Shown here: positions 4,619 to 12,616 of the stretch, in pieces
Position numbering within the stretch: the first letter of the stretch is position 1
Layout of the letters: every line of letters starts with the position of its first letter
Source of the DNA: Nitrosomonas sp. Nm84
GTDB taxonomy: Bacteria > Pseudomonadota > Gammaproteobacteria > Burkholderiales > Nitrosomonadaceae
Length of the DNA stretch: 64,000 nucleotides
NCBI RefSeq assembly: GCF_003201565.1
Contig: NZ_QJJP01000018.1
Coordinates: 1-64,000 of the forward strand
Reading direction: 5' to 3'
Made by a program: the position numbers and the translations under genes
Notes under the pieces: model-generated
What the model saw: the letters and a program-made list of their open reading frames with translations, nothing else
What the model was told of the DNA's origin: nothing
The model's database searches: none

Positions 4619-5251
4619 CTACTCGACTAACCGATGCTGGATAGCATAACGAACTAATTGCGCATTATTTTTCATATTCATTTTTTCCAGAATTCGAGAC
4701 CGATAAGTACTCACCGTTTTGACACTGAGTGATAATTTATTGGCTATGGCTGTCAAAGATTCTCCTGATACAATCAGTTTAAAAACATGGAGTTCTCTAT
4801 CCGAGAAAGTAGTATGTGTTAATGCTGCCGAATCCAGCACTGGATTAAACAGAAGTTTTTCCGCCAACTCAGGGTTTACGTATTTACCACCTCTAGCGAG
4901 ACGCCGAATCACATTAATCAGTTGATCCGTTGGACTATCTTTAGTTAAATAGCCTGAAGCACCTGAACGAATGGCTCTAATCGCATATTCTTCTTCGGGA
5001 TACATACTCAACACCAGAATACGCGCGGCAGTATTTGCCGATAAGATTCTTTTTAAGATATCCAACCCATTGATATCCGGTAGATTAATATCCAGCAAAA
5101 TGATGTCCCATTCGCATTCTCGGGCTTTCTTTAAAATATCCTTACCATCAACCGCTTCTGCAACAACTTCAATATCTTCTGTTTCACTAAATATCCTTCT
5201 CAGTCCATCACGAAATAAAGCATGATCATCTGCAACCAGAACTTTAATCAT
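4619..5251 (-). CDS. NarL/FixJ-family response regulator
   Basis: This is a two-domain regulator of about 210 residues: an N-terminal receiver with the phospho-acceptor Asp in DIILLDINLPDING, and a C-terminal LuxR-type helix-turn-helix (SDRELHVFKLIVSGESLTAI, then LSVKTVSTYRSRILEKM). The start chosen is the ATG at 5251, which overlaps the end of the upstream kinase gene by 8 bp (ATGATTAA) and has GAGGAG before it. That overlap indicates translational coupling and a cognate pair. The kinase it follows is of the NarX-like HisKA_3 class, the usual partner of NarL regulators. The regulon is unknown. Confidence 0.92.
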   Translation of the reverse strand: MIKVLVADDHALFRDGLRRIFSETEDIEVVAEAVDGKDILKKARECEWDIILLDINLPDINGLDILKRILSANTAARILVLSMYPEEEYAIRAIRSGASGYLTKDSPTDQLINVIRRLARGGKYVNPELAEKLLFNPVLDSAALTHTTFSDRELHVFKLIVSGESLTAIANKLSLSVKTVSTYRSRILEKMNMKNNAQLVRYAIQHRLVE

Positions 5252-6698
5252 TGATTGACTCCTCAAATAGTCCAATAGTCGCCACAGGTATTCTCAGTGT
5301 TACCATACTTCCTTCCAAAGGTGAACCGACTATTTCTAGTTTTCCACCTAATTGTTGCACTCTTTCATTCATGCCAATTATTCCAAAAGATCCAGGATTC
5401 AGCAATTGTGATTCAGTGATGCCTATGCCATTATCTTTAATGGTAATTACCAAACCATCCTGATCTTCAAGAAGCTCAATATCCACTTTTGTCGCTTTGG
5501 CGTGTCGTGCTATGTTGATAAATGCTTCCTGAACAATTCTAAAAATACTGGTCTCATGATGCTTGTTGATACACGATACATTTGGTATGGTCGATTCAAG
5601 CGAACATTTAATATTTGTCCGCTGTTCAAATTCACGTACCAACCATTCAATGGCGCCGTATAACCCTAAGTGATCCAGTACGTTGGGTCGCAAATTAACC
5701 GAAACCCTGCGTGCAGTTTCAATTGCTTCTCCGGTTAATTGATAAAGTGACACAATTCTTTCATGCATTGGTTCAGTATTTATTTTCTTTGAGAGCCAAT
5801 CCAAATCCATTTTCAAGACAGTCAACGTTCCTCCCAGCACATCATGAATTTCACGGCCTATCCGAGTTCTTTCTTCTTCTCTAATATCTTGCAGGTGGGT
5901 TGTTAAATGACGTAGATTCTCGATCATCCTTCTCCGTTCAGTGATATCTTCAATCATACATAAATAACATACTTCCAAGTTTCCAACCATTTCAAATAGT
6001 ACGATCGACATTTCAATCCAGATAACAGAAATATCTTGGCGCAAGATTCTTTTTATTATTTTAGAGTCATGCAACTGCTGATTGATAATGTGCGCTATGT
6101 CATCCTTGTAAAATGGCAAATCATCCGGATGAATGATATCGGATTGATTGATACTCAGAAGCTCATTCACACTTCTGCCCGCAATGGATGCATACTTTGG
6201 GTTTACATCGTAATATTTTCCAGTTTGTAAATTGATCAGCGCAATACCCAGGGGTGCTTTCTCAAAGATAGTTTGAAACCGCTTTTGCGCTTTTCTATTA
6301 CTTTCTTCTATGCGCTTTCTCTCTATTGAATAACGGATAACACGTGCCAAAACACCCTCAGTCAGACTCCCTTTCACAAGATAATCTTGCGCGCCCGCTT
6401 TTATTATTTTTATTGCAAGTTTCTCATCATCTCTAAAAGACAATACTGCAATGGGTATATCCCCAGCACTTTCTCGCAATCGATTAATCGTCGTAATGCC
6501 GTCGCTGTCGGGTAAAGTAAGATCTGACAAAATTAAATCAAATGAGTGTTGTTGAAGTAATTCAAGCGCGGAACTTAATCGCTCTGCGTGAACCAAGCTG
6601 ATTTGATCACCCATGGCCCGCTGTAAATCACTTTGCACCAGGAATGCATCAGTTTCATTATCTTCAATTAACAAAATATTAATCTTGGGCATCGTCAT
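5244..6698 (-). CDS. Hybrid sensor kinase: REC-PAS-HisKA_3-HATPase
   Basis: This is a 484-residue soluble histidine kinase with an unusual N-terminal receiver. Residues 5-120 form the REC domain with Asp59 in LILSDLTLPDSDG. Residues about 140-255 form a PAS domain ending in IEDITERRRM. The HisKA_3 dimerisation helix contains REIHDVLGG with His285, and the ATPase has N-box EAFINIARHA (391-400), DNGIGI (422-427) and a G2 loop near GSFGIIGM. No membrane segment is present, so it reads an intracellular or upstream phospho-signal. It is coupled to the NarL-type regulator (8-bp overlap), and the CheY-like gene ends 6 bp upstream. The receiver could let the upstream PAS kinase/Rcp1 pair feed into this one; that is inference. 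Confidence 0.92.
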   Translation of the reverse strand: MTMPKINILLIEDNETDAFLVQSDLQRAMGDQISLVHAERLSSALELLQQHSFDLILSDLTLPDSDGITTINRLRESAGDIPIAVLSFRDDEKLAIKIIKAGAQDYLVKGSLTEGVLARVIRYSIERKRIEESNRKAQKRFQTIFEKAPLGIALINLQTGKYYDVNPKYASIAGRSVNELLSINQSDIIHPDDLPFYKDDIAHIINQQLHDSKIIKRILRQDISVIWIEMSIVLFEMVGNLEVCYLCMIEDITERRRMIENLRHLTTHLQDIREEERTRIGREIHDVLGGTLTVLKMDLDWLSKKINTEPMHERIVSLYQLTGEAIETARRVSVNLRPNVLDHLGLYGAIEWLVREFEQRTNIKCSLESTIPNVSCINKHHETSIFRIVQEAFINIARHAKATKVDIELLEDQDGLVITIKDNGIGITESQLLNPGSFGIIGMNERVQQLGGKLEIVGSPLEGSMVTLRIPVATIGLFEESIND

Positions 6699-7157: not shown

Positions 7158-7858
7158 TCAATTAAATTTCGGAATTGTAAAATAAGCGGCTGAACCAACA
7201 TTCGGTTCGGATTGGATCCATATTCTTCCACCGTGATACTCCACGACTTTCTTGCAAATTGCTAAGCCGATACCCGTACCGGCATATTCCCTACGGCTAT
7301 GTAATCGCTGAGACACCCGAAAAATACGTTCTAGATATTGTTCCCCTATGCCAATTCCGTTATCAGTTACCGAAAGAATCCATTCACAAAAACTTTCTTT
7401 TACTCCAATATGAATTTTAGATGGCTGCGCTCTTTGGAATTTAAGTGCATCGTTGATTAAGTTAGTAAGCAACTGAATAAATTGAAAAGGAGTGCCTCTA
7501 GCTACAGAAAGTCGATCATGTGTAATTATCGCATTACATTCGCTGACGATGATCGATAAGTCTGTCAATACATTACCTAACAATCTCTCACAATCAACTT
7601 CCGTGAAGGTTTGATTTGCATTAACTTGCGTATAGGTTAATAAATCATCAGTCAGCATCTGCATGCGACTTATTCCTGTTATCACATGCAAAATCAGCTC
7701 GTCAGCACGGTCATCTAATTGGTGATCGCAGTATTTCTTCAGTAGTTGGACGAAACTATTAATAGCCGAAAGCGACTCCTTTAAATCATGCGTCACGACA
7801 TAAGCAAATTGCTCGAGCTCATCATTAGAGCGAGCCAATTCTTTGATTTGCCTTCCAT
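7158..7858 (-). pseudogene. Histidine kinase module (HisKA-HATPase), 3' part of a frameshifted PAS kinase
   Basis: The frame encodes ELARSNDELEQFAYVVTHDL, with the phospho-accepting His in VVTHDLKE, then an ATPase domain with N-box TNLINDALKFQ, DNGIGIGEQYLE and GTGIGLAICKKVVEYHGG. It is a complete phytochrome-type kinase core of about 226 residues but has no proper start: the first usable codon is TTG at 7838, and the linker reads in frame only back to a TAA around 7876-7878. The PAS-containing frame immediately upstream ends at 7867 in a different phase, so one indel between about 7845 and 7880 most likely split a single gene. It could still be translated alone from the TTG. The Rcp1-like regulator downstream is the probable partner. 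Confidence 0.75.
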
Positions 7859-7866
7859 TTTTCCCT

Positions 7867-8271
7867 CTAATTGCTTAATCCTGTGACATCGATCCAGAGT
7901 GCAACATACTGATAGGGAGATTCCGCGCGATCGCGCAGTGGAATAATGGTCGCGTCTATCCAATAAAAAGTACCTTCTCTCGTCCGATTCTTAAACCATT
8001 TCTTCCAAATTTTTCCTGCCGTGAGAGTGTCCCATAAAACACGCATAAATTCTTTAGAATGAAAACCGGAATTAACAATGCGGTGACCTTCTTCTAACAA
8101 TTCTTCCGCCGAATATTTAGGGGTTGCGCAAAATTTTTCATTGACGTATTTGATTCTGCCACTCTTGTCTGTAATCGCTATGCTTACATGCTCATTGAGT
8201 GCGCTTTCAATCAATTGGACTTCATTCAAGAGAACTGCTTGCACACCATAGAGTTCTTTTGCTCTAGCCAT
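7867..8271 (-). pseudogene. PAS domain, 5' part of the frameshifted histidine kinase
   Basis: This 134-residue frame has a helical leader and one PAS domain (SIAITDKSGRIKYVNEKF, later HRIVNSGFHSKEFMRVLW and GTFYWIDATIIPL) and ends in YVALWIDVTGLSN followed by TAG. In related kinases this last motif runs straight into a short coiled coil and the HisKA domain. Here the coiled-coil sequence continues in another frame and the kinase core starts about 30 bp on. I read it as the front half of one PAS-HisKA-HATPase protein broken by an indel. If the break is real the PAS protein may survive as a separate polypeptide. Confidence 0.7.
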
Positions 8272-8626: not shown

Positions 8627-9188
8627 TTTGTGCCAACCCAGGATCTTGTTTATGCATCTGTTTCTTATCTTTACACTGGTATCAAGGACATATTCCTAAT
8701 TATCGAGCAGCTAATATAAATAACGTTTCATAGTATCTGGCTGGAAATCCAAAGACCATAGGAACATTCTTACTATTTGCTACTTCTTTTATTCAATCAA
8801 GACCGGCTATTTCTGACTATCATCAATGAATCATTCAACCTCAGCACCTATTCGATTTAATTCATCAGTATCCGAAAAATATATCAATCTGTATCGAGCG
8901 TATATGTAAATGCAGTTGCTGGCTCCAAAACAAATTTTTCACCTATCCGTTATAAATGAAAAATAAATACACATCTTATTTTTTAGTTCAAACAAGATAC
9001 AAAAAAGCAGCATTATGTCTTCATAAGACTGCAATTACTATGTTATACATTAATTATCAGACAGTTATTGCGCTCATAATAAACCAATGCTGAATGCAAA
9101 ACAGGAGATTACCGGCACGATATATTTATTCTTATGCCGTTAAACCCTATCTTACTGTAACAAAATCATAAAAGAATAGGATATCTCA
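8627..9188. other. AT-rich intergenic region without a recognisable gene
   Basis: Both strands were read and no frame with coding character or known motif was found. A short hairpin GTCTT-CAT-AAGAC lies near 9020-9035. The region ends at a decayed PAS fragment, so it may itself be old, degraded coding sequence. Confidence 0.5.
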
Positions 9189-9373
9189 TTGATTATTATC
9201 GACAACGACTCCAAGGAAAGATTAACCTATGTCAGCCAGGCATTCATAGGAGCCAGTGGATTCTCAGAAGAAGGGTTAATGGGAAAAGCGCACATAATAT
9301 TGTTCGCCACCCCGATATGCCACCCGAAGCATTCGAGGATTTATGGAATACCTTAATGGAAATTTTGCTCTGA
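9189..9373 (+). pseudogene. PAS-domain remnant of an Aer-like chemoreceptor
   Basis: The plus strand reads LIIIDNDSKERLTYVSQAF, then GASGFSEEGLMGKAH, then after a one-base frameshift at about 9297 NIVRHPDMPPEAFEDLWNTL, ending at TGA 9371-9373. This is the same PAS segment as residues 21-77 of the intact chemoreceptor at 867-2615. No HAMP or signalling domain follows. It is a decayed partial duplicate of an Aer-like gene, facing the LOV gene that begins at 9862. Confidence 0.75.
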
Positions 9374-9409: not shown

Positions 9410-9862
9410 TCATTTCTTAAGCTTTGCTAATTGTTCTTTCAGTTCCTTGATTTCCGCTTCTGCGCGAATGCGTGGCGTAACATCCAATTGAACGCCCAGG
9501 AAATACAGCAAATTTCCTTTAGAATCAAACAGCGGTGACATTACGAGATGGTTGTAAAACAATTCACCACTCTTACGATAATTACGTAATGTCACTTCAA
9601 CGGACTCCTTATTCTTGATTGCTTCCCGTAATTGACTAGCTGCCGTTTGATCGCGTTCCTTTCCCTGCAAAAAGCGACAATTCCTACCCACCGTTTCCGC
9701 CAGCGTATAACCGGTTATGGTTTCAAAAGCTTTGTTAACATAGACCAGTGGCATATCTTCTTGATCAGGATCAGCTAGTGACACCCCATTTACGCATGAA
9801 TCAAGAATCTTGGACAATACTTGCGGAATTAATCCAGGGTCTTTTTCAACGATAAAATCCAT
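9410..9862 (-). CDS. Short LOV-domain blue-light photosensor
   Basis: This 150-residue protein is essentially one LOV domain. It carries the diagnostic flavin-binding motif GRNCRFLQG (residues 59-67) with the photoactive cysteine at 62, the following QLREAIKNKE helix, and FYNHLVMSPLFD on the central sheet. Family knowledge says such a domain binds FMN and forms a reversible cysteinyl adduct in blue light. The last 25 residues (IRAEAEIKELKEQLAKLKK) look like a J-alpha/coiled-coil dimer helix; there is no kinase, HTH or GGDEF output. It is the last gene of an apparent operon after an FAD oxidoreductase and an SRPBCC protein (66-bp gap). It presumably signals by dimer rearrangement or partner binding. 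Confidence 0.9.
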   Translation of the reverse strand: MDFIVEKDPGLIPQVLSKILDSCVNGVSLADPDQEDMPLVYVNKAFETITGYTLAETVGRNCRFLQGKERDQTAASQLREAIKNKESVEVTLRNYRKSGELFYNHLVMSPLFDSKGNLLYFLGVQLDVTPRIRAEAEIKELKEQLAKLKK

Positions 9863-9928
9863 GATTTTCTCTCCAGGTTAATCAATTACCAGCTAAATAA
9901 AAAAAGAACGCGGGCACATGTGGTTCCA

Positions 9929-10414
9929 TTACTTCAAGTCAACTTGCTCTGCTTCAATTAATTTTTTGATATTTCTTACTGTTCTCTCGGTCCCATCTTG
10001 CACAGCGATTCGTACCAGTTTCTCAAATGGTCTCACATGTAAATCGAGGCTTAATAATTCAAAAATAAAAGTCAGTCGGCTATCCGCAGAATTAATGGAC
10101 TCAATCATGTAATCACATCGATAAGGATTGGAAACACCTTCAAAACAAATGCGCATCCCTGCATCGAAGATCTTGATCTTAAATGTTGATTCGGACCGAT
10201 TACCTTGATCGATGCGCACTTGACGACAGATCACTCCTTGTCTTATAGGGCCATCGGTGAGCTTCTCCAGATCCTTGACTTCTGGTGACCATCTCGGATA
10301 GTTAACCAGCAGATCAATTCCGATAAAATTGAAAAGCTTGTCGTTTGGACTCTGGATTATTGCGCTGGCCTTACCCATTACGGGACTGTCTTTGAACAAA
10401 CCAAGCATAATCAT
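9929..10414 (-). CDS. SRPBCC/START-like ligand-binding protein
   Basis: This 161-residue cytosolic protein matches the SRPBCC helix-grip fold by length and pattern, with an early strand-helix segment (NFIGIDLLVNYPRWSPEVKD), a run of beta strands in the middle, and a long C-terminal helix (HVRPFEKLVRIAVQDG, then RTVRNIKKLIEAE). Members bind hydrophobic ligands in a deep cavity; the ligand is unknown here. It lies 19 bp after the FAD oxidoreductase and 66 bp before the LOV gene on the same strand. The three genes probably form one transcript. Fold assignment is by eye, so a profile search could change it. Confidence 0.65.
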   Translation of the reverse strand: MIMLGLFKDSPVMGKASAIIQSPNDKLFNFIGIDLLVNYPRWSPEVKDLEKLTDGPIRQGVICRQVRIDQGNRSESTFKIKIFDAGMRICFEGVSNPYRCDYMIESINSADSRLTFIFELLSLDLHVRPFEKLVRIAVQDGTERTVRNIKKLIEAEQVDLK

Positions 10415-10433
10415 GTCTCCTGCGTAGCGTTTG

Positions 10434-11591
10434 TTAAACCAGGTAAGTATCGATTCCTACCAATAATAAATCATATTGTGCTTCAACGAGCTCTTTAATT
10501 GCCAACGCCGGCACACCGGTTATTAAATTGCCTTCAGAACCCAGCCAGCCCACAGCATCCGCTGGCCCCAAGCTCACTACATAACCTAAGTCATGATGAA
10601 GGTATGGCTCAAGCAATCCGGGGAAGCCTGAATGTCGCAATATATTGCGTGCGACTAATTTACCTTTGCGGACAGCAGATTGCGCTGTTAATGTATTAGA
10701 GCCTAAGGATTGATAATAAGAACAATCGCCAGCCACAAAAATATTGGATAACGGTGACTTATCTACAATAACTTGCCCAAAGGCGTTAGCAGTAAAAATA
10801 TTTTGTGTTTTCTTGCCTAAAAGCAAAATGGATAAACTGGAAGGCAGTTCAAATTGTTTTTCCGTTTGTTTCTCTGCTAACAAAACCTTGTTGGACTGTT
10901 GTCCACGATAGTAGGTATTCGGATAAAAAGCGATATCCATATCATGCATACGAGATTGCACATAAGTACTAAACCCATGGGGAAATTGCTCCAGCACATG
11001 CTCACCCGAATGAATCAATCGTAACTCAGCATTGCTTTTGATTCGATGGAGAAATTGTTTGATTTCAAACAAAAACTGTATGCCTGTAGCTCCTCCACCC
11101 ACAACAGAGATCGATTGCTCGGACTGATTATGTTTGCCGAGCCATTTTGTCAGCAACTCAGAACCGGCGACAGTGGTGAAATCCTGCAGATCCAGCACAT
11201 TGTCTGTAGGATCTGCGTCCCTACTTGCACAACCGGAAGCAATGAACAGATAATCAAAACGCAAGACTTCGTTATCCAGGATCAACTGCTTTTCTTCCTG
11301 ACATCTCCGAAGCTCGTCTTGATCAACGCATACTGAAGCGGATATGTACCGACAACCATAGCGATTTGCTATATCGGCAAAGGGCACCAGCAAATCTGTC
11401 AAGGGATACCGGAATGTTTCATGTAGATGCGTAATTTTTACATGCTGTTCCCTGGGATCAATAATGGTGATATCCGTATCAGGCGCATAGCGCAACAAGG
11501 TCGTTAATGCGGCAATACCGGCATACCCGCCGCCTACTATTACTACTTTCAATCGCTTATGTTTCGATATATAAAACGGCAAAAAAGCCAC
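10434..11591 (-). CDS. FAD-dependent pyridine nucleotide oxidoreductase (NDH-2-like)
   Basis: This 385-residue enzyme has two dinucleotide-binding folds: KVVIVGGGYAGI near residues 15-26 for FAD, and SISVVGGGATGIQFLFE in the middle for NAD(P)H. The C-terminal NIFVAGDCSYY is the second FAD contact. Overall it resembles type II NADH dehydrogenases and AIF-like proteins, which pass electrons from NAD(P)H to quinone or another acceptor. No membrane helix is obvious. It heads the presumed operon FAD oxidoreductase - SRPBCC - LOV, so its flavin chemistry may be linked to light sensing; that link is inference. Specific acceptor cannot be determined. Confidence 0.82.
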   Translation of the reverse strand: MAFLPFYISKHKRLKVVIVGGGYAGIAALTTLLRYAPDTDITIIDPREQHVKITHLHETFRYPLTDLLVPFADIANRYGCRYISASVCVDQDELRRCQEEKQLILDNEVLRFDYLFIASGCASRDADPTDNVLDLQDFTTVAGSELLTKWLGKHNQSEQSISVVGGGATGIQFLFEIKQFLHRIKSNAELRLIHSGEHVLEQFPHGFSTYVQSRMHDMDIAFYPNTYYRGQQSNKVLLAEKQTEKQFELPSSLSILLLGKKTQNIFTANAFGQVIVDKSPLSNIFVAGDCSYYQSLGSNTLTAQSAVRKGKLVARNILRHSGFPGLLEPYLHHDLGYVVSLGPADAVGWLGSEGNLITGVPALAIKELVEAQYDLLLVGIDTYLV

Positions 11592-11722: not shown

Positions 11723-12616
11723 TTAGTGAGGAATTTGATCGACTCGCCAGTTTTCCTGAGCCCAGTGCCAGAAGGAAGCAATGTCACCTTCTATCATCTC
11801 TAATGGTGGCTCCTGACCTAAAAAATGTAGCGCATTCACCAATTGCATAAGTGCATTAGATACATCGATTGGCGCAGCGTGGGTTTGTTTACTGAGCTTT
11901 TCACCCAGCGCATTGGTAACAACGGGCAAATGCAAATAGCTTGGCGTCGCATACCCCAGCAACCGCTGTAGCAATATCTGACGTGGCGTAGAGTCCAACA
12001 AATCCATACCACGTACGATATGCGTTATTTGTTGTTCAGCATCGTCTACGACCACTGCCAATTGATATGCGTACATGCTATCAGCTCGGCGCAAGACAAA
12101 ATCACCAATATCATCCCTCAATCGTTGAGAATACAATCCTCTCAACCTATCATTGAATTCTATGACATCATTCCCGGTGCGAACACGGAGCGCATATGCT
12201 TTATTGATAGGGGCAGGATTTCTAAGGCAGGTTCCAGGATACACCGGCCCGCTCACTCCCATAATGCTGGAATCAGCAATCTCTTTACGCGAACAAATGC
12301 AGGGGTAGATAAATCCTAGCTTACCCAGCATATCCACTGCGTTCCGGTAAACCTCAGAACGCTGACTTTGATACATCACATCACCATCCCATTCCATACC
12401 CAATGTTTCAAGTGTATGTAAAATACTACTGGTTGCACCAGGCATTTCTCGCTGTCGATCGAGATCCTCAATCCTCACCAACCAATCACCGTGGTTGAAT
12501 CTGGCATCAAGGTAACTACCCACTGCAGCCACTAATGAACCAAAATGTAGCGAACCCGTAGGCGACGGCGCAAATCTACCACGATACCTTGGACTCACAT
12601 GGCGGCTATTTTCCAC
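11723..12616 (-). CDS. gluQRS: Glutamyl-Q tRNA(Asp) synthetase
   Basis: This 297-residue protein is a truncated glutamyl-tRNA synthetase paralogue without anticodon-binding domain. The HIGH-type signature is in FAPSPTGSLHFGSL near residues 15-28, the KMSKS-type loop is KLSKQTH, and a CICSRKEI motif supplies cysteines for the zinc site. GluQRS activates glutamate and attaches it to queuosine at the wobble position of tRNA-Asp. Length is normal for the family. It is divergent from mpl, with a 190-bp gap between the two starts. The start MENSRHVSPRY gives the usual short leader before RGRFAPSPTG. Confidence 0.95.
   Translation of the reverse strand: MENSRHVSPRYRGRFAPSPTGSLHFGSLVAAVGSYLDARFNHGDWLVRIEDLDRQREMPGATSSILHTLETLGMEWDGDVMYQSQRSEVYRNAVDMLGKLGFIYPCICSRKEIADSSIMGVSGPVYPGTCLRNPAPINKAYALRVRTGNDVIEFNDRLRGLYSQRLRDDIGDFVLRRADSMYAYQLAVVVDDAEQQITHIVRGMDLLDSTPRQILLQRLLGYATPSYLHLPVVTNALGEKLSKQTHAAPIDVSNALMQLVNALHFLGQEPPLEMIEGDIASFWHWAQENWRVDQIPH

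Follow-up and report, generated by a model that had tools for sequence, protein, structure and literature searches.

The photochemistry of short LOV proteins is well studied, and the partners shown for them in the accessible literature are of one kind only, the MerR/LitR regulator of Pseudomonas. In the case of PmSB-LOV, the gene adjoining that of the canonical short LOV protein encodes its light-dependent partner, the MerR protein PmlR2 (PMC9758184), and signalling via the N-cap to an unknown partner was proposed for DsLOV (PMC4335406). A further type is represented by the McLOV proteins of Methylocystis (McLOVn, McLOVr and McLOVn-TF), which are dimers, form a cysteinyl-flavin adduct and recover within 38-180 s (PMC4416707). 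The hallmarks of the McLOV N-cap are common to the fungal proteins VVD and ENV1, and its Pro, its Asp and its turn with a Cys are absent from the Pseudomonas short LOV proteins (PMC4416707). An AraC-HTH-LOV protein of ~490 aa was also described in Methylocystis, and the model put forward for the system is competitive dimerisation with a LOV transcription factor, with no partner or SRPBCC neighbour reported (PMC4416707). Our own literature search, which excluded preprints and most subscription journals, yielded nothing relevant that links SRPBCC proteins with LOV proteins or blue light, and no text naming an SRPBCC partner for McLOV-type proteins.

The locus described here is located in a window of 64,000 nucleotides (the whole stretch of DNA that was analysed) from Nitrosomonas sp. 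Nm84 and contains a short LOV gene directly preceded by a gene for an SRPBCC protein. Like the McLOV proteins, the LOV protein of the window is short and has no output domain, and its N-cap sequence KDPGLIP...ILDSCVNG fits the McLOV N-cap description (PMC4416707), with Pro13, Asp21 and Cys23 as the corresponding residues. Since an AraC-HTH-LOV fusion of about the same 490-aa architecture belongs to the same clade and occurs in a genome with pmoA-type genes (see below), the SRPBCC-paired clade appears to be of the Methylocystis McLOV type, a match made from the published description; dimer formation and adduct were measured on McLOV proteins alone. In contrast to the McLOV systems, the LOV gene of the window has an SRPBCC neighbour and its genome has no LOV transcription factor; competitive dimerisation with such a factor is ruled out by the presence of a single LOV protein in this genome. 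The protein also resembles PpSB1-LOV, PpSB2-LOV and PmSB-LOV of Pseudomonas in its size of ~150 aa, its N-cap and J-alpha helices and its predicted structure (TM ~0.86), and the Pseudomonas proteins likewise have a partner coded nearby. However, the Pseudomonas short LOV proteins form a separate clade, score at most 158 bits against the paired-LOV profile, lack the N-cap motif and often have a MerR-type regulator or a photolyase as neighbour instead of an SRPBCC protein. The window protein is therefore not a member of the canonical LitR/MerR-coupled group, and coupling to LitR/MerR was rejected, as that neighbour goes with another LOV clade.

Short LOV and SRPBCC proteins are both known as such; their conserved pairing, which the literature search did not turn up, gives this clade of short LOV proteins a dedicated partner gene of a new type.

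The LOV and SRPBCC genes of the window

The features of the locus are listed below with the basis of their assignment.

9410..9862, minus strand: short LOV protein, 150 aa (ORF list; profile, sequence and structure matches)
9869..9874, minus strand: ribosome-binding-like sequence GGAGAG, 6 nt 5' of the LOV start (read from the sequence)
9929..10414, minus strand: SRPBCC protein, helix-grip fold, Polyketide_cyc2-type, 161 aa (ORF list, relatives, model)
10417..10421, minus strand: ribosome-binding-like sequence AGGAG, 8 nt 5' of the probable SRPBCC start at 10408 (read from the sequence)
10434..11591, minus strand: NDH-2-like FAD/NAD(P) oxidoreductase, 385 aa, a facultative neighbour (profile and sequence searches)
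11723..12616, minus strand: GluQRS (tRNA glutamyl-Q34 synthetase; family-model match above cutoff)

The three ORFs for the LOV protein, the SRPBCC protein and the flavoenzyme thus exist on the minus strand as the earlier note had placed them, with intergenic gaps of 19 bp (flavoenzyme to SRPBCC) and 66 bp (SRPBCC to LOV). Ribosome-binding-like sequences are read in front of all three (AAGGAG, AGGAG and GGAGAG for flavoenzyme, SRPBCC and LOV, respectively), and GluQRS, which usually precedes the flavoenzyme gene in Nitrosomonas, is encoded 131 bp upstream of it on the same strand. Scans for promoters and terminators returned the same numbers of matches as in shuffled sequence.

The LOV protein matches Pfam PAS_9 (1.7e-20), LOV proteins among the PDB sequences (down to 1e-31) and the YtvA-family model (2e-46, which is under the full-length cutoff of that model). 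It is composed of an N-cap (residues 1-24) with the signature [ED]KDxGxIPxxLxxILD, a core containing the photoactive Cys62 within GRNCRFLQG (residues 59-67), and a J-alpha helix (residues 129-148). The AF2 model places helices 11-21 and 129-148 on either side of the core and has PpSB2-LOV as its nearest structure (TM 0.86). As the ORF begins just 5' of the LOV domain and stops with the J-alpha helix, there is no output domain, and the 150-aa protein shows the combination of core, N-cap and J-alpha without an effector domain that characterizes short LOV proteins. The earlier description of a LOV protein with an intact photoactive cysteine and without an output domain was therefore correct. Cys62, Asn94, Asn104 and Gln125 are invariant throughout the SRPBCC-paired LOV clade; the latter three are the putative flavin-contact residues. 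No other bona fide LOV protein was found in the genome of the window.

The SRPBCC protein itself has no Pfam match at E<=0.001, while Polyketide_cyc2 (PF10604) matches 44 of 45 of its relatives. Its AF2 model (pLDDT 92.8) exhibits a predicted helix-grip fold, with strands and a C-terminal helix (128-158), as known from the Polyketide_cyc2/SRPBCC superfamily (ZhuI ARO/CYC, TTHA0849, PR-10/Bet v 1, PYL), and Foldseek matches it to ZhuI ARO/CYC, PR-10 and PYL proteins at a probability of 1.00 and TM values of 0.6-0.8. It differs from the named structures in its low identity to them (10-15%), its score below the Pfam cutoff, its conserved LOV neighbour and its private motifs NYPRWSPEV, RQVRxDQGxR and PFEKL, which are kept in its relatives. 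No sequence relative was found among solved structures and no match among the PLSDB plasmids. Translation probably begins at the second Met (10408), giving 159 aa, because this residue is invariant in the relatives and lies 8 nt from AGGAG.

Pairing of LOV and SRPBCC genes across genomes

In the set of 125 genomes from the family Nitrosomonadaceae, LOV genes are present in 100 and SRPBCC homologues in 111. According to the matches listed, 94 of the 105 LOV loci have SRPBCC as the immediate 5' neighbour of LOV; 9 further loci were confirmed as paired from the fetched regions, in one more, at the start of its contig, the LOV gene is preceded by the 3' end of an SRPBCC gene, and the last, which starts inside the LOV gene, was left out as unjudgeable, so that all 104 assessable LOV loci of the family are paired. 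The gap between the two genes is mostly 33-111 bp. Fisher tests on the co-occurrence ignore shared ancestry and are to be read as descriptive only.

Two classes of SRPBCC proteins are distinguished in the family. Class A (at least 57% identity to the window protein) partners LOV in Nitrosomonas and some Nitrosospira, and class B (~50%) is solitary in Nitrosomonas and paired with LOV proteins of a branch of their own in further Nitrosospira-type genomes. As each class goes with its matching LOV branch, the pair travels as a unit. LOV and SRPBCC are lost jointly while the flavoenzyme is kept: class-A SRPBCC genes are present in only 2 of the 25 LOV-less genomes, once at a contig edge (G005) and once next to a LOV pseudogene with a frameshift (G077). 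The latter locus (L085:855-1149, C97), in which the LOV remnant accompanies intact genes for SRPBCC, flavoenzyme and GluQRS, is a case of LOV loss caught midway. One family genome (G075) contains a second SRPBCC-LOV pair elsewhere on the chromosome.

The pairing extends beyond the family. In 370 genomes of the class, an SRPBCC gene adjoins each LOV gene whose product scores above 200 bits to the paired-LOV profile; the next LOV proteins score at most 151 bits and include canonical short LOV proteins encoded next to MerR-type regulators and photolyases, as identified by eye from the sequence. When GTDB species were scanned with the SRPBCC profile, 359 relatives were obtained, and the neighbours of the best 80 of these 359 were inspected. 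A LOV gene is found directly 3' of SRPBCC in 67 of the best 80, 63 of them recognized by script and 4 by inspection because of overlong ORF starts. These paired loci belong to Spiribacter, Ectothiorhodospira, Thioalkalivibrio, Halomonas/Vreelandella, Thiohalocapsa, Marichromatium, Nitrosospira, Nitrosomonas and a few MAGs. Over all collected loci, the scores separate paired LOV proteins, with 228 bits or more, from unpaired ones, with no more than 158; the two that break this rule are an AraC-type fusion and a locus truncated at its edge. The 45 dereplicated paired LOV proteins and this fusion form one clade in the LOV tree (SH-aLRT 100), and the distances among LOV and among SRPBCC proteins are correlated over 127 pairs (r=0.905, permutation maximum 0.116), a value that is explained in part by species history. 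One genome (G343) contains two SRPBCC-LOV pairs in tandem. No natural fusion of SRPBCC and LOV was seen in the collected loci, apparent overlaps being due to overlong ORF starts or different frames.

The AraC-type fusion comes from an alphaproteobacterium of the phylum sample (G640), which contains two SRPBCC-LOV pairs and, as a third LOV protein of the clade, a LOV domain fused behind a GlxA/AraC-type regulator. In this protein of 490 aa (G640:C6, L235:4033-5505, minus strand), the LOV domain is at the C-terminus of the DJ-1/PfpI and AraC-HTH parts, an architecture similar to that published for McLOVn-TF. Because of this AraC-HTH-LOV fusion and two pmoA-type genes, G640 is probably a relative of Methylocystis-like methanotrophs.

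Solitary SRPBCC genes were encountered in 13 of the best 80 loci, mostly in purple sulphur bacteria such as Thiocapsa; in Thiocapsa (L158, L162, L164, L166, L167, L169) and others, they occur in two conserved contexts. The genome of the window (G000) also has a second SRPBCC copy of its own, a class B protein without an adjacent LOV gene (C2:137266-137733; L069, L099), which is encoded between genes for an S49 peptidase and an O-methyltransferase. As judged from these 13 loci and the second copy, the SRPBCC protein can act without LOV.

A candidate blue-light module and its alternatives

The pairing of the LOV and SRPBCC genes is shown by the genomes; a contact of the proteins, docking at the N-cap, a light dependence of the SRPBCC protein and an output are inferred. 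The favored interpretation, to which we assign a probability of roughly two in three, is a two-gene blue-light module in which a LOV dimer gates the SRPBCC protein via its N-cap. The short LOV protein would bind FMN, its dimer probably being held by the N-cap and J-alpha helices, and blue light would lead to a cysteinyl-flavin adduct at Cys62, which should recover in seconds to minutes, as in the McLOV proteins. The change at the adduct would reach the conserved N-cap (KDxGxIPxxLxxILD), which would bind the SRPBCC protein from the adjoining upstream gene, either in the lit or in the dark state, and this binding may gate either the binding of a hydrophobic ligand by the SRPBCC protein or the interaction of that protein with another target. 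Such a switch would loosely resemble the PYR/PYL hormone receptors, with the photoreceptor acting as co-receptor.

The N-cap is as conserved in the paired LOV proteins as the flavin core (0.78 and 0.74, compared to 0.52 for J-alpha), which suggests a protein contact at this site; Lys7, Asp8, Gly10, Ile12 and Pro13 are near-invariant in the paired proteins and mostly missing from canonical short LOV proteins. By analogy to the MerR neighbour of a canonical short LOV, which proved to be its partner (PMC9758184), the SRPBCC protein is likely the direct partner of LOV, docking on the N-cap, and it represents the best candidate yet for the partner of McLOV-type short LOV proteins. The conserved adjacency can equally be read as a shared pathway without contact. 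A wider version of the proposal, by which LOV dimers docking a dedicated SRPBCC protein with the N-cap and switching its ligand pocket would constitute a new photosensory output class spanning Alpha-, Beta- and Gammaproteobacteria and providing the general McLOV-type partner, is possible, if rather doubtful at present. The SRPBCC protein offers a specific and readily tested partner for the whole clade, and if the two-gene reading is true, a protein with a ligand-binding fold would be light-gated and a small two-component part would become available for optogenetics.

A first alternative, which is unlikely, places the SRPBCC protein upstream of LOV: it would make, bind or deliver a small molecule modulating the LOV/PAS domain, and LOV would integrate light and metabolite and signal to an unlinked partner. 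SRPBCC folds mostly bind hydrophobic ligands, the structural neighbours include ZhuI ARO/CYC, PR-10 and PYL, the clade includes a LOV protein with a GlxA/AraC-type regulator as fusion partner, and the hydrolase RsbQ serves the PAS domain of RsbP, the two having been described as a bipartite sensing module (PMC3183031). However, LOV domains are filled by FMN and have no obvious second pocket, the window's genome contains no second LOV protein, and the lone SRPBCC copies would be left without a receptor.

A second, likewise improbable, follows the light-responsive redox module of the earlier note and is a three-gene system in which LOV, perhaps through the SRPBCC protein, controls the flavoenzyme and quinone reduction, e.g., in the photoinhibition of ammonia oxidation. 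The photoinhibition of nitrifiers is documented (PMC9239080), the same-strand gaps are short, and among the family pairs in the matches listed the flavoenzyme is directly upstream in 78 of 94; its absence from this position in the other 16 is in some cases due to contig ends. As the three-gene order is kept at the loci of 78 relatives, it is not a product of chance. The flavoenzyme contains the FAD and NAD(P) dinucleotide folds of Pyr_redox_2 (PF07992, 3.3e-21), shares this architecture with NDH-2 and has NDH-2 of S. aureus as its nearest solved relative (4e-20), but the alignment with the latter reveals AQSAVR in place of the quinone motif AQxAxQ, with the second Gln replaced. Moreover, the enzyme is present in 120 of the 125 family genomes and retained in 21 of the 25 without LOV (in one of these, G079, GluQRS and flavoenzyme remain together with LOV and SRPBCC absent), and it is unlinked to the pair in Nitrosospira-type genomes; an obligate partnership is ruled out by these cases. 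Within the 80 named loci, pairs adjoined by the flavoenzyme were seen in Nitrosomonadaceae and in two MAGs with the labels Methylococcaceae and Methyloversatilis, but nowhere else, and the enzyme was not found beside the pairs of Halomonas, Ectothiorhodospira, Thioalkalivibrio, Spiribacter and Thiohalocapsa. The claim that the three genes stay together in relatives thus holds for many Nitrosomonas, but fails for the flavoenzyme elsewhere: the obligate association is that of LOV with SRPBCC, and the flavoenzyme is probably a bystander of the nitrifier pair, a lineage-specific operon neighbour. The suggested tie to ammonia oxidation has no support either, since the pair occurs widely outside the ammonia oxidisers and is missing from some Nitrosomonas. 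With the two-gene module as the preferred reading, the question of light in nitrifiers shifts away from an enzyme of electron transfer and towards a sensor pair common to purple sulphur bacteria and halophiles.

Third comes mere co-expression, also improbable, by which both proteins belong to a regulon for light or oxidative stress without contacting each other, e.g., with an SRPBCC protein handling lipids or pigments beside an autonomous LOV protein. The outer neighbours of the pair are indeed often redox, lipid or light genes and vary by lineage: GluQRS and the flavoenzyme in Nitrosomonadaceae, a pirin in Halomonas and Ectothiorhodospira, an SDR in Spiribacter, a fatty acid hydroxylase in G343 and G488 and a rhodopsin in G360. 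However, SRPBCC alone is constant across all lineages, the two genes are lost jointly and duplicated pairwise, and the conservation of the N-cap points to a protein contact. A toxin-antitoxin-like pair, in which LOV would neutralise in a light-dependent manner an SRPBCC protein resembling the Rv0910 toxin family, is very improbable, because the weak matches of NF047960 to 24 of the 45 SRPBCC relatives (best 2.3e-7) do not include the window protein itself, SRPBCC families generally resemble one another, and solitary SRPBCC genes are stably retained without LOV in many genomes.

Other signalling genes near the LOV loci

A further sensory gene set is encoded in the window.

5244-6698: response regulator-PAS-histidine kinase, accompanied by a LuxR-type response regulator (4619-5275)

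A counterpart of this kinase is located ~90 bp after LOV in one genome (G067) and unlinked in most others. The kinase was ruled out as the output of LOV, as it is found elsewhere on the chromosome or is absent in most genomes.

Between this kinase and the LOV gene, a histidine kinase ORF (7158-7838) and a PAS ORF (7867-8271) are arranged end to end, each in its own frame; the region 7158-8271 resembles one split PAS-kinase gene, whose two parts G069 has as well. Downstream of LOV, the plus strand (9186-9370) contains a PAS-like fragment with an apparent frameshift (YVSQAFIGASGFSEEGLMGKAHN / VRHPDMPPEAFEDLWNTL), which is probably the remnant of a chemoreceptor-type gene. At other loci, G462 encodes near its pair another small PAS protein, which lacks the LOV cysteine (L240:7119-7517) and has relatives near the pair in three Spiribacter-like loci, and the rhodopsin gene adjoining the pair in G360 (C13, L236:7194-7949) codes for a microbial rhodopsin (PF01036, 3.7e-42) and is oriented divergently.
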